Positions 32,958 to 41,783 of a stretch of 64,000 nucleotides of DNA are shown one piece after another. The translations under genes and the position numbers were made by a program. Source of the stretch: Vampirovibrio chlorellavorus (lineage in GTDB: Bacteria > Cyanobacteriota > Vampirovibrionia > Vampirovibrionales > Vampirovibrionaceae); NCBI GenBank assembly GCA_903866275.1, contig CAIPMU010000016.1, positions 1 through 64,000 on the forward strand, written 5' to 3'. The notes beneath the pieces were generated by a model. The model was not told the origin of the DNA. It did not search any database and saw only the letters and a program-made list of their open reading frames with translations. The first letter of the stretch is position 1, and each line of letters opens with the position of its first letter.

Positions 32958-33425
32958 TTATCTTGTATGCATGCTCAATGCTAGTAGAGGCACTCCGGCA
33001 CAAAATGCACCGGTTAGCAGGAGACTGCAACCTGTCACGATTAGAACGCCCAACGTCATATACACTTTCCGGCTGAACAGTGTCACACACACCAGAAATA
33101 AAGTAATGAAAAGCCAAATCGGTACGACAAAGATCATTGAAAAATAAATACCCGTAAAAAAAGCACCCAAAGCATTACTGATACCAATACCCCTGCCTAG
33201 CCCAATCATCATCAACAAAAATGCAATCACAGCAAAAAAACTGAACGCTCCTCCATAATAACGCACGGTTAACCAAATCCCCTCTACCATTTCAGGAGTG
33301 TGGTTTGGCTTTTTTTCAGGCGGAGTTTGCTGAGATTCATTCATCAAAAGAGAAGCCTGAGCGGGAAATGCTTCCTGCTCGTTTAAAGACTCTGCGTGAT
33401 CTGGATTGAATGGCTCTTCATCCAT
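32958..33425 (-). CDS. Small membrane protein, paralogue C of a tandem trio, 155 aa
   Basis: This is the third of three adjacent paralogues (34051, 33492, 32958). Each starts MDEE.(L/F)NPD, has an acidic disordered head, then KKP(N/D)HTPEM(V/L)(Q/E)GI and three hydrophobic helices, ending in LTGAFC or LSGAFC and a short tail. Here the helices are at about residues 58-78, 85-112 and 125-150. The family was not recognised. Tandem copies suggest recent duplication with a shared structural role. Confidence 0.6.
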   Translation of the reverse strand: MDEEPFNPDHAESLNEQEAFPAQASLLMNESQQTPPEKKPNHTPEMVEGIWLTVRYYGGAFSFFAVIAFLLMMIGLGRGIGISNALGAFFTGIYFSMIFVVPIWLFITLFLVCVTLFSRKVYMTLGVLIVTGCSLLLTGAFCAGVPLLALSMHTR

Positions 33426-33491
33426 TAGACTTTGCCCTTGGATTGATCATCATATCATTGTGTTTAACTGGAACTCGGTCTGTGGATATCA

Positions 33492-33944
33492 TCATCTCGC
33501 ACTTATTGAAAAATATACAAGAGGAGCCCCAATACAAAACGCACCAGAAAGCAAAATGCTGCCCCCAGTCACGAGCAATATTCCCAAGGCCCTATAAAAT
33601 TTTCGCTTAAATAAGGAAATTATTAGGAGAATGAGACTGATCAAACCCCAAATAAATATCAAATAGATCACTGAAAAATAAATATACCCTGCGATAGTGA
33701 GTAGAACATTATCCATAGCTGTCGATGTTGCTATAGCGGCTACTATCACTAACAGTTCAAAGATGCAAAAAGCGCCAAAGTACCACCACAGGGTCAACTT
33801 TATGCCCTGAAGCATTTCTGGGGTGTGGTCTGGCTTTTTGGGGGGCGGCGGGGATTCGTACATCAAAACAGAAGCCTGAGCGGGCAACGCTTCCTGCTCG
33901 TTTGAAGATTCTTCCTGGTCTGGATTTAGAGGTTCTTCATCCAT
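33492..33944 (-). CDS. Small membrane protein, paralogue B of a tandem trio, 150 aa
   Basis: Same layout as its neighbours: MDEEPLNPDQ, acidic head, KKPDHTPEMLQGI, three helices, and LLSGAFCIGAPL near the end. ATG 33944 behind GGAGAATG is chosen over an upstream in-frame start. It lies 106 bases after paralogue A. Closest in sequence to paralogue C in the head region. Confidence 0.6.
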   Translation of the reverse strand: MDEEPLNPDQEESSNEQEALPAQASVLMYESPPPPKKPDHTPEMLQGIKLTLWWYFGAFCIFELLVIVAAIATSTAMDNVLLTIAGYIYFSVIYLIFIWGLISLILLIISLFKRKFYRALGILLVTGGSILLSGAFCIGAPLVYFSISAR

Positions 33945-34050
33945 TAAACATTCTCCTGCAGCCATACATTCAATAAAGTTGAATCTAAAAACTAAAATTC
34001 TGGTTGCAAAACGGCTACCCTGTCACTGTCAAAAGTGATCAGGCGTTCAT

Positions 34051-34473
34051 TCATCGGGGATGAGCAAACATCATCCACTCATTGGCACAAAATGCACCGG
34101 TTAGCAGGAGGCTAACACCTGTCACCATTAGAACACCAAGGGAATTATAAAATTTACCTTTCCATAAAAATACCAGAATCAATACAATGGATACTAAAGC
34201 GCAAATAGGCCAAGCAAAGACTAAACCCACAAAAACTCCTATCAAAAAATACCCACCACTGATTCCTGTTACAACTAAAACACTCGCAAAGTAAACGCCC
34301 AAATACCACAATAAGGTTACAAATATGCCCTGAACCATTTCTGCAACGTGATTCGGTTTTTTCGGGGTGGGAGGTATTGAAGAGGCGTCCATTTTTACGG
34401 ATATACCGCCAAGCAATGCGTCTTGAGGGGGAGAATGTTCTGCGTTGTCTGGATTCAGTTGTTCTTCATCCAT
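34051..34473 (-). CDS. Small membrane protein, paralogue A of a tandem trio, 140 aa
   Basis: The first of the three paralogues, and the most diverged in the head (MDEEQLNPDN). KKPNHVAEMVQGI and GAFC near the C-terminus identify it as family. Its ATG overlaps the stop of the radical SAM gene (TGATG), so it is translationally coupled to that enzyme. This coupling is the main reason to suspect that the trio works with the enzyme. Confidence 0.6.
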   Translation of the reverse strand: MDEEQLNPDNAEHSPPQDALLGGISVKMDASSIPPTPKKPNHVAEMVQGIFVTLLWYLGVYFASVLVVTGISGGYFLIGVFVGLVFAWPICALVSIVLILVFLWKGKFYNSLGVLMVTGVSLLLTGAFCANEWMMFAHPR

Positions 34474-35882
34474 CAGACTTTCTCCATTGCGAACGCGGAA
34501 GTGGTCGGGATGCGGCTGGCCAATTGCTCGTTGCGATAAAACAGGTTGTAGGTATCAAAGGGGATGACGCGGCCATCCGGGTGCACGATATGAATGCAGG
34601 AACGCTTCACGGAACGCACATCGAAGTTCCAGGCATCCAGAAATTCCATGATGATCACCCGGAAAATATTTTGATACCCCAGCGCCTCTGGGGCTTCAAT
34701 CTTGGGCAGGCAGCACAGTAAATCGTGCACCGCATGCGAGGTGGACTGCGGCGAATGGTTCAGCGCAAACAGGCCAAACACCTTGCCCCGCACCGAGGGA
34801 TCTTCCTCATAGCGAATGGTATTACCCGCAGCATCCAGCAGCAGGGCCGGGTCCATATACCGCGAGAGGGGATAGGCCTGTCCGTCGGCTTTTAATGCAT
34901 ACGCCATCGCAATGCAATCGGGATGACACGGTACGGGAATGATGTCATCCGGCGTAAACAGCGAGGACTGCTTTAAAATCTGCTGACGCACTTCGGCCAG
35001 CGTCAGGCGATCGGTGGCGGGATCAAAGTTCTCCGTGCGGCCCGCATGCTGAATGGGCTGAAAGGTCACGCCGCGCACGCAGGGCTGCTGAATCGCAAAC
35101 TCCAGAATCTCGCCAATCTCCTGGTCGTTGAGCCCCTGACGCAACACCACCACCAGCGTGGTGGAAATATTAAACTCGTTCAGGTGCGCCAGCGCCTGCA
35201 TGCGCACTTCCAGCAGGTTTTCCCCGCGCAGGGTCTCGATGGGGCCGGGCTTCAAGCTATCGAATTGCAGATAAATTTCAAACCCCGGCCCGTAGTCAGC
35301 CAACCGCTGGGCAAACTCGCGATCTCGCGCGATGCGTACCCCGTTGGTGTTCACCATCAGGTGCCGAATGGGCTTGGATTTGGCCAGATCCAGCACCTCG
35401 AAAAATTGCGGGTGAATGGTGGGCTCGCCGCCGCTAATTTGCACCACATCGGGTTCGCCTTCGTTTTTCACCAACTCATCCATCATAAATTCAATTTGCT
35501 CCAGCGAGCGATGCGAGCCGCGTGTGGGGGCGGAATCGGCGTAGCACACCGGGCATTCCAAATTGCAGCGATCCGTGATTTCAATCAGGGTGAGGCAACT
35601 GTGCTGCTCATGATCCGGGCAAAGGCCGCAATCGTAAGGGCAGCCGCGCTCGGTGGCGGTATTGAAGCGTAGCGGCAACTGACCCGGCTTTAAAAAGGCG
35701 CGGGCTTTTTTGTAGTAATCCGCATCCGTGGAAATCAACACTTTTTGCACCCCGTGGGTCAGGCAATTTTTGATCTGATAAACCTGCCCGTCCTGCACAA
35801 TAATTTTGGCCTCGACTTTGTGCAGACATTGCGGGCACAGGCTATTGGTCAGTTCATAAAAGACATACGGGCGGTCGGTCAT
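34473..35882 (-). CDS. Radical SAM protein, COG1964/Tes-like, 469 aa
   Basis: The radical SAM site CNLECPVC (Cys106, Cys110, Cys113) follows an N-terminal region with CPQC (16-19), NC-L-THG (Cys40), CPYDCGLC (81-88) and Cys96: extra metal sites before the SAM cluster. The GGEP motif and C-terminal Cys pairs (CHPDC, LLCCLP) are present. This arrangement, with a rubredoxin-like head, matches COG1964, the family of the archaeal tetraether lipid synthase Tes (MJ0619), which couples lipid tails. Bacterial relatives are largely uncharacterised. The start overlaps the lgt-like stop by 4 bases, pairing the two enzymes. It may act on membrane lipid chains, but substrate is inference. Confidence 0.82.
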   Translation of the reverse strand: MTDRPYVFYELTNSLCPQCLHKVEAKIIVQDGQVYQIKNCLTHGVQKVLISTDADYYKKARAFLKPGQLPLRFNTATERGCPYDCGLCPDHEQHSCLTLIEITDRCNLECPVCYADSAPTRGSHRSLEQIEFMMDELVKNEGEPDVVQISGGEPTIHPQFFEVLDLAKSKPIRHLMVNTNGVRIARDREFAQRLADYGPGFEIYLQFDSLKPGPIETLRGENLLEVRMQALAHLNEFNISTTLVVVLRQGLNDQEIGEILEFAIQQPCVRGVTFQPIQHAGRTENFDPATDRLTLAEVRQQILKQSSLFTPDDIIPVPCHPDCIAMAYALKADGQAYPLSRYMDPALLLDAAGNTIRYEEDPSVRGKVFGLFALNHSPQSTSHAVHDLLCCLPKIEAPEALGYQNIFRVIIMEFLDAWNFDVRSVKRSCIHIVHPDGRVIPFDTYNLFYRNEQLASRIPTTSAFAMEKV

Positions 35883-36667
35883 TGGGGTTGAATCCTTTCC
35901 TGAACTTGGTTTTGATCTTGGTCTTTGTATTGGTCTTGGCGCGCCATGAGGGTCATCCAGCCCAAGCGGCCATATCTAAAACCATAAAACAGTAAAACAC
36001 CCAGACTCAGGAGCTGGGTGCCGTTGATTCCTCCATAAGGGTGCGGCACGGGTTTAATGAATTCAATGGCCAGCCGAAAGGCGAAGTAGCCCATCATAAA
36101 GTAGCGAAATAACTCACCTTGCGGGTAGGCCGTTTGGCGTCGCCAGTGAATGACCGCCAGTAAACCCGCCAGAAACAACACTTCATACAACTGGGCGGGA
36201 TGCCGCAACACGCCATCCCCAAAATCGACGCCCCAGGGTAATGTCGTGGCGATGCCGTAGGTCTGATCCTGAAGCCCATTCAGGAAACAGCCGATGCGGC
36301 CAATCATGGTGGCCACGATCAAGGGCACCACAAAGAGATCGCCGGTGGCCTGCTTCAGGCCCATGATCTTCTTGGTGAGTTCCACGCCCAACCAGCCGCC
36401 CACCAAAGCGCCCCCAATGCCTTTTCCGGCCAGCAGTTCGAGGCCCGGATGCGTCGCCTGCTGCAAAAACCAGGCCGGATGATCCAGCCAGACCACTGCC
36501 TTGGAGCCCAGCGCCGCCCCCACAATACAGCCGCCAATCACCCAATTGCGATGATCCACGTCAATGGGGTCGCGCACGCGGTCGCGACGCATCAGGCGAA
36601 AGCCCACAAAGTAGGCCAGCCACTCAAAAACCATGTGCAACCAGGGGGGTAATATACCCAGAATCAT
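35879..36667 (-). CDS. Lgt-like membrane transferase lacking the active His, 262 aa
   Basis: The protein has about seven hydrophobic helices and the Lgt signatures GRIGCFLNG, RHPAQLYE and FRLAIEF. The Lgt core motif with the essential His (HGGLIG; His103 in E. coli) is replaced by GIGGALVGG, while the Arg residues matching Arg143 and Arg239 remain. Ordinary Lgt attaches diacylglycerol from phosphatidylglycerol to lipoprotein Cys. Without the His this may be a related lipid-handling protein. It leads the operon, with a 4-base overlap into the radical SAM gene. CGGAG precedes the ATG. The true lgt may be elsewhere. Confidence 0.75.
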   Translation of the reverse strand: MILGILPPWLHMVFEWLAYFVGFRLMRRDRVRDPIDVDHRNWVIGGCIVGAALGSKAVVWLDHPAWFLQQATHPGLELLAGKGIGGALVGGWLGVELTKKIMGLKQATGDLFVVPLIVATMIGRIGCFLNGLQDQTYGIATTLPWGVDFGDGVLRHPAQLYEVLFLAGLLAVIHWRRQTAYPQGELFRYFMMGYFAFRLAIEFIKPVPHPYGGINGTQLLSLGVLLFYGFRYGRLGWMTLMARQDQYKDQDQNQVQERIQPQ

Positions 36668-40225: not shown

Positions 40226-41485
40226 TTACTTATTTTGCAGCTTGGTCAGGAAGTTCAGCACCGCAAGACCTACAGTGGACTTGGCATTCGGGTTATTCAC
40301 CAGAGCCTGGGCAAACGCCTTGGTTGCGGGAGTGGCATTGGTCAGACCAAAATCCAGAGACTTCGGGTCGGTTAACGCTGATTGAGCAATCCCTTGGGCC
40401 GTAGATTGCTTATCCAGAATGCGGTGACCCCACATAGAGAAGTTCAGCAGGTCCGTGGCCGATACACCGGAAGTTTGTACAAACTGCTGCAAGCCAGCGG
40501 GCGTCTCAACATTAGGCGTCGTCCTGAACAACTCTGCCGCGTTGAGGCTTGAGTCGGTTTTCTTGAGGCCGGCGGCAAATCCGGTGATGGAAGGGCCATC
40601 GGTCGTCGGCCAGACTTGCTCAATCAGCTTCAGCTCAGCGCTGCCGTTGATTTTGCCATCGTCTTCAAGATCCATCTTGCCCCATTGGCGAACCATATCA
40701 GTGGTTTCCGGGGTGGCATTAAAGGCCGTATTGTTGCTCTGGGTGGGGGCTAACAATGTTCTTAGCGTCACATCACCGTTGATTTTGCCATCATATAAGT
40801 CATGACCCAGCAAGCGAATGCCGACGCGGGCAAACTTGGATAAGCCGGAGGGATCATTGCTATCCAGAATCTGGGTATTGACCGCTTTTTTCGGCGTGAA
40901 CATCGACTTCAGGAAATCCTGAGTCAAATTGCCATTCGCATCCACCGGCACTTTATCTAAAGACAACGTGCCAGGATCAAAGTTACCCGGGGTGGGAGTG
41001 GGAGTGGGAGTGGGAGTGGGAGTGGGAGTGGGCGTAGGAGTTGGGGTAGGGGTAGGGGTAGGGGTAGGAGTTGGTGTGGGAGTGGGCGTTGGGGTTGGCG
41101 TTGGGGTTGGCGTGGGGGTTGGTGTGGGAGTGGGTGTGGGAGTGGGCGTTGGGGTTGGTGTGGGGGTTGGCGTGGGAGTGGGGGTGGGAGTGGGCGTTGG
41201 GGTTGGTGTGGGGGTTGGCGTGGGGGTTGTGCCACCCTGACCCAGAATCAAAGACAACAACTGGGTCAACAGGGTCAAAATCTGAAATAGCGCGGAGTTC
41301 TGAGCGCCACCGCCAACACTCCCAGGCACATTCGGATTACCGGGATATGCCCCAGGCTTCTGATTTCGCCCGATGCCGTAAGACGAGTCGGCTTCATGCA
41401 CATGACCAGACTCTTTCCTCACGCTATGGCGCGCAGTAGATAAAGTCATATTGGGAATATTGGAACGGTTGTTGACCTGTGTCAT
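40226..41485 (-). CDS. Protein with long Pro-Thr repeat and C-terminal helical domain, 419 aa
   Basis: ATG 41485 follows GAGGG. After a polar head and a hydrophobic patch (ALFQILTLLTQLLSLILG, about residues 65-82) comes about 80 residues of alternating Pro and Thr, a stiff extended linker. The C-terminal 250 residues are helical and contain two DGKING motifs (near 245 and 285 from the start), each followed by a helix, plus DANGNL; these resemble calcium-binding half-EF or dockerin-like loops. Cell-surface or filament roles are common for such spacers but there is no classical signal peptide. Function unknown. Confidence 0.7.
   Translation of the reverse strand: MTQVNNRSNIPNMTLSTARHSVRKESGHVHEADSSYGIGRNQKPGAYPGNPNVPGSVGGGAQNSALFQILTLLTQLLSLILGQGGTTPTPTPTPTPTPTPTPTPTPTPTPTPTPTPTPTPTPTPTPTPTPTPTPTPTPTPTPTPTPTPTPTPTPTPTPTPTPTPTPGNFDPGTLSLDKVPVDANGNLTQDFLKSMFTPKKAVNTQILDSNDPSGLSKFARVGIRLLGHDLYDGKINGDVTLRTLLAPTQSNNTAFNATPETTDMVRQWGKMDLEDDGKINGSAELKLIEQVWPTTDGPSITGFAAGLKKTDSSLNAAELFRTTPNVETPAGLQQFVQTSGVSATDLLNFSMWGHRILDKQSTAQGIAQSALTDPKSLDFGLTNATPATKAFAQALVNNPNAKSTVGLAVLNFLTKLQNK
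40990..41230. repeat. Short tandem repeat coding for (Pro-Thr)n, G-quadruplex prone
   Basis: About 240 bases of six-base units (GTGGGA, GTTGGG, GTAGGG variants) on the + strand, with G runs of three or four every six bases. The strand with G runs is the template for the protein. Length changes by slippage would stay in frame only in multiples of three. Confidence 0.9.
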
Positions 41486-41783
41486 TGTCAAAGCCCTCAA
41501 TATTTAAATCCAGCCTAATTCGTATATACTAAATATAAAAATTTGACTGCTTATAGATTGCCTGCTTTTAACAATCTGTAAAAAACTATTTACAAACAAA
41601 GACTCTGCAGATTAACATCTTCGGACGTCGAATCCCGTCATCACAACACAATACGCTCAGCGCACCTGCAAAAACTAAAGCCACAAGCCATGCGACCTAA
41701 CACACTTTCAAAAAAACACATCAGAAATAGGACACTCACTTGCGTAAACCGGCAAGAAGGCCTCTATCGGTATATTTAAGGCT

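Follow-up and report, generated by a model that had tools for sequence, protein, structure and literature searches.

The radical SAM tetraether synthase Tes (GDGT-MAS; MJ0619, PDB 7tol/7tom; NCBIfam NF045702) carries a rubredoxin-type site, an N-terminal auxiliary cluster and a CX3CX2C motif, and binds E. coli phospholipids (PMC9433317), and another NCBIfam family, the radical SAM (seleno)protein TrsS (NF045646), has no assigned function. Prolipoprotein diacylglyceryl transferase (Lgt; E. coli, PDB 5azb) finds the Cys of a lipoprotein signal at the outer end of a helix that follows basic residues, and its H103 mutants, H103Y included, are inactive in E. coli (PMC4728403). Modular terminal tags with a dedicated enzyme are represented by the CTERM sorting systems, such as MYXO-CTERM, in which an invariant Cys precedes the C-terminal helix (PMC11980579), and the name of NCBIfam NF058595 (invert_tail, lipo-invert putative C-terminal anchoring domain) suggests the idea of an inverted C-terminal lipid anchor. 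Here, a locus joining an Lgt-like and a Tes-like gene was analyzed in a 64,000-nucleotide stretch of Vampirovibrio chlorellavorus (assembly GCA_903866275.1, contig CAIPMU010000016.1, positions 1 to 64,000; hereafter the window). A first-pass annotation had noticed that the two genes overlap by 4 bases, that the radical SAM protein has the multi-cluster COG1964 head of Tes and that the Lgt-like protein keeps the lipid-head Arg residues but lacks the essential His, and had proposed lipid chain chemistry, possibly giving membrane-spanning or modified lipids.

This observation was confirmed. Both ORFs are on the minus strand, i.e. the Lgt-like gene at 35879-36667 (262 aa; Pfam PF01790, 86 bits versus a cut-off of 24.9) and the radical SAM gene at 34473-35882 (469 aa; PF04055 and the HMPTM zinc ribbon PF23545), and share an ATGA overlap at 35879-35882. 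However, the operon does not end there, and a third part had been missed: the radical SAM stop and the start of the next gene share a base (TGATG at 34475-34471), and three small co-directional minus-strand genes follow downstream (32958-34473), each encoding a small membrane protein with a Cys near its C terminus. These are copy 1 at 34051-34473 (140 aa; Cys129, codon 34087-34089), copy 2 at 33492-33965 (157 aa as listed, its real start perhaps being Met8 at 33944; Cys144, codon 33534-33536) and copy 3 at 32958-33425 (155 aa; Cys142, codon 33000-33002). They are about 41-52% identical to each other and belong to no Pfam or NCBIfam family, with one DUF7937 hit below its cut-off; searches with the small proteins against both collections gave only weak, below-cut-off membrane-protein hits, except a B-box zinc finger in one clade. 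The three small genes have about 42% G+C, against about 55% for the two enzyme genes. Elsewhere in the window, a 424-aa ORF at 40226-41500 (-) has a very long Thr-Pro dipeptide repeat followed by a different C-terminal region.

The best solved relative of the radical SAM protein is Tes (7tol, phmmer E 4e-73), and its AlphaFold model, in which the stretch 343-397 is of low confidence and was read from the alignment only, gave a Foldseek TM of 0.82 (7tom). The multi-cluster head is real, and three of the four metal sites of Tes are shared: C16-x2-C19-x20-C40-x2-H43, C81/C85/C88 plus His, and C106-x3-C110-x2-C113 are invariant in 38 of 38 family members. Nevertheless, the protein scored 297 bits with the Tes model (cut-off 450; other cassette members 283-299) and 343.5 bits with the TrsS model (cut-off 490; two others 337-338), the latter being its best NCBIfam score and a match along the whole length, so that it can be filed under neither. 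In a tree with M. jannaschii Tes and 17 above-cut-off acidobacterial Tes, but with no true TrsS, 23 cassette enzymes formed one clade with 100/100 support, across well-supported branches from Tes. The C-terminal domain differs where Tes does its special chemistry: three C-terminal Cys positions conserved in the acidobacterial Tes are 55%, 0% and 0% Cys in the cassette clade, the conserved Tyr459 is replaced by Ile in 38 of 38, and an insert of about 22 residues is missing, while C96, C319, C390, C391 and C429 are the clade's own and invariant in 38 of 38. In this comparison the numbering of the PDB chain and that of the paper were mapped by a 20-residue offset (C9 in the paper is residue 29 of the chain), and which Tes Cys are ligands is inferred from conservation. 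Thus, the enzyme is built on a Tes-like scaffold but is not a Tes.

The Lgt-like protein is a second copy, as the genome also has a canonical Lgt (182 bits) on another contig (C19:104456-105181). Its model is confident (pLDDT 90) and has E. coli Lgt as its only significant PDB match (5azb, E 1.4e-6, TM 0.55), although its 41.4 bits are below the equivalog cut-off of TIGR00544 (118.9 bits). Aligned with E. coli Lgt, it keeps R143, Y235, R239 and E202 as R124, Y194, R198 and E162, the first three equivalents being invariant, but has Lys at R246, Val at H103 and a GKTIVGG-type motif instead of the HGGL region; within its own family, identity is about 42-47% in distant phyla. The phosphatidylglycerol pocket (Arg143, Tyr235, Arg239) is therefore kept, and the protein probably still binds a phospholipid, as inferred from these residues. 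The existence of a second, His-bearing lgt had been named as a check, and the canonical Lgt of the same genome was found to have Tyr at that site, so the missing His is no clear sign of a dead or re-purposed Lgt, although the E. coli H103 mutants fail.

To evaluate whether the genes belong together, relatives of the radical SAM protein at 60-74% identity were collected from Cyanobacteriota (Melainabacteria-type and Sericytochromatia), Bacillota, Bacteroidota, Verrucomicrobiota, Acidobacteriota, Planctomycetota and Myxococcota, with the phylum labels being those of the tree rows and some MAG names doubtful. Of 80 such loci in genome_contigs, 75 have the Lgt-like gene next to it and 76 have a small ORF with the Cys tag next to it. 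An HMM of the tag-protein family found 65 ORFs beside the cassette and 0 of 4897 elsewhere in the same loci, and a looser tag rule found 82 of 449 ORFs beside against 44 of 4897 elsewhere; it should be considered that the 80 loci were chosen by likeness to the window, that the HMM was trained on the same loci and that the ORFs are mechanical. In 289 genomes of the class, the two enzyme genes mark the same genomes, with 10 having both and one lone hit each, at a contig end. In a separate acidobacterial sample chosen with the Tes model rather than by likeness to the window, all 9 members of the clade (52% identity or more) have an Lgt-like match on the same stretch, in one of them only a fragment 2.6 kb away, while the 5 more distant ones (39% or less) have none. 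True Tes genes exist separately in Acidobacteria, and besides these, several further Tes/TrsS-like radical SAM groups below both NCBIfam cut-offs occur in those genomes (e.g. loci L204-L210 and L200-L202), with L200-L202, L197 and L199 having no Lgt-like gene nearby.

When the set is split, the parts still co-occur: a planctomycete (L180) has its Lgt-like gene beside a tagged protein on another contig, three Saprospiraceae without an adjacent Lgt-like gene have a full-length one elsewhere, and locus L112 has no tagged protein in its flanks but one elsewhere in the genome. A few cassettes (L052, L193, L194, L203) showed no clear tagged protein nearby. The cassette also looks accessory, as four other species of the same genus lack both enzyme genes; in one of them the same neighbours flank a gene for a likely metallo-beta-lactamase-fold protein in place of the cassette, and two more keep part of the same gene order without it. 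In the slot matching window 32958-36667, such loci (L240 5628-6575 and L241 9085-10220) hold a gene for a 224-232-aa protein, resembling the metallo-beta-lactamase fold by eye, plus a small protein of 74-107 aa, so the cassette looks like a swapped-in accessory block.

The small proteins of other genomes are only 11-25% identical to the window copy and, besides Met1, have one near-invariant column, the Cys. In 83 tagged proteins, the Cys follows a helix preceded by Lys/Arg (0.145 per residue before the helix versus 0.035 after the Cys), usually lies 3-15 residues from the C terminus and has mostly small residues at -2. This predicts an inside-to-outside helix, as for an Lgt substrate, with the orientation resting on the positive-inside rule only. 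Position and predicted orientation are those of a lipoprotein signal with the Cys outside, but the motif that signal peptidase II would cut is lacking, as only 6 of 83 fit the canonical lipobox [LVI][ASTVI][GAS]C. The tag differs from MYXO-CTERM as well, since the Cys follows the helix in 83 of 83, and from invert_tail, which gave a weak hit to one member but no match over its 37-bit cut-off in 32 cassette genomes, with hits elsewhere looking like any membrane helix. The same tag ends unlike proteins, i.e. three-helix proteins in most phyla, B-box zinc-finger proteins upstream of the Lgt gene in Paenibacillus and Saccharibacillus (loci L095, L097, L098, L109), and ~240-aa proteins in Obscuribacterales. 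In an acidobacterium (L190), two small proteins lie between the two enzymes and have a comparable Cys at the end of their first helix, and odd third parts are a zinc-ribbon protein with Cys inside its helices (L010 3606-4055) and a lipoprotein-like 68-aa protein upstream of the Lgt-like gene (L105 3033-3239).

Taken together, the locus is a five-gene operon of a conserved three-part cassette, i.e. an Lgt paralogue, a Tes-like radical SAM enzyme of its own clade and one or more small membrane proteins carrying a putative modification tag. We propose, with about even confidence, that the Lgt paralogue binds phosphatidylglycerol in the conserved Arg/Tyr pocket and transfers diacylglyceryl to the tag Cys, and that the radical SAM enzyme acts in the same pathway, most likely by radical chemistry on the lipid chains to be attached or just attached (new C-C or C-S bond, or chain alteration), which would give a membrane protein with an unusual covalent lipid. 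The multiple tagged copies per cassette are as expected for substrates. What the analysis itself establishes is the gene set, its conservation, the tag, the folds (by models) and the residues, whereas the helix orientation is a prediction, and it is inferred, in falling order of confidence, that the tagged proteins are substrates, that the Lgt paralogue is catalytic and lipidates the Cys, and that the radical enzyme changes the lipid or the adduct. Beyond the absence of supporting biochemical or lipid data, the Val at H103 and the rarity of lipobox-like tags, the weakest point is how a cytosolic radical enzyme would meet a Cys predicted to be on the opposite face of the membrane. A bolder form of this view, which can be held only tentatively, is a widespread, previously undescribed protein-lipidation pathway in which the dedicated Lgt paralogue attaches diacylglyceryl to the Cys of a non-cleaved transmembrane tag and the Tes-type enzyme forges a new carbon bond on that lipid, so that a membrane protein carries a radical-modified, perhaps cross-linked, lipid. 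Literature searches on Tes with Lgt, radical SAM with diacylglyceryl transferase, lipo-invert, and diabolic acid with Paenibacillus found nothing describing the cassette, though only among open-licence papers, so an existing description elsewhere cannot be ruled out.

Among the alternatives, radical SAM peptide maturation survives best but appears unlikely; in this view, the enzyme modifies the tagged protein itself, for example by a thioether at the Cys, and the Lgt-like protein is a non-catalytic membrane receptor for it. A small, fast-evolving, often multi-copy partner with one invariant Cys beside a radical SAM enzyme fits this, and peptide-modifying enzymes such as SuiB and SkfB are among the weaker structural matches; however, no leader-binding domain or precursor-like leader was seen, the partner is a membrane protein, and the Lgt-like pocket residues are conserved as if used. 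Somewhat more doubtful is that the tagged proteins are subunits or membrane anchors of a complex with the two enzymes: the operon coupling through the TGATG junction and the steady co-occurrence fit subunits as well as substrates, but partners of an enzyme conserved at 60-74% identity diverge to about 11-25% with a single conserved residue and are replaced by B-box or ~240-aa proteins that share only the tag. The least likely is the first-pass proposal in its membrane-spanning form, with the radical SAM enzyme joining acyl tails into free lipids, the Lgt-like protein presenting phospholipids and the small proteins being accessory; it is favoured by the Tes fold and head, the phospholipid binding of Tes and the kept pocket, and is not excluded on present evidence, but nothing here requires it, and it is opposed by the separate clade, the missing Tes C-terminal Cys, Tyr459 and insert, the separate true Tes of Acidobacteria, the unexplained invariant Cys of the third part, and carriers (Paenibacillus, Neobacillus, Chitinophagaceae) that are known for ordinary ester lipids and not for membrane-spanning ones, no paper on diabolic acid with Paenibacillus having been found among open-licence papers.

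Thus, the first-pass interpretation is only partly supported: the two genes belong together, the radical SAM enzyme has a Tes-type fold and metal-site head, and the Lgt-like protein probably still binds a phospholipid, but the synthesis of membrane-spanning lipids is not supported, and above all the Cys-bearing small membrane proteins point to protein modification. If the proposed reading is right, it adds a protein-lipid modification with radical chemistry to bacteria as common and tractable as Paenibacillus and Neobacillus. It also has a practical consequence now, because bacterial Tes homologues are counted in genome surveys as possible producers of the branched tetraethers used in palaeothermometry (PMC8941075, PMC11868695), and the loose cut-offs of PMC8941075 (E < 1e-50, identity > 20%) would probably be passed by this clade, although it is a separate group tied to a protein-tag cassette. 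Bacterial "Tes homologues" of this clade should not be read as tetraether markers.
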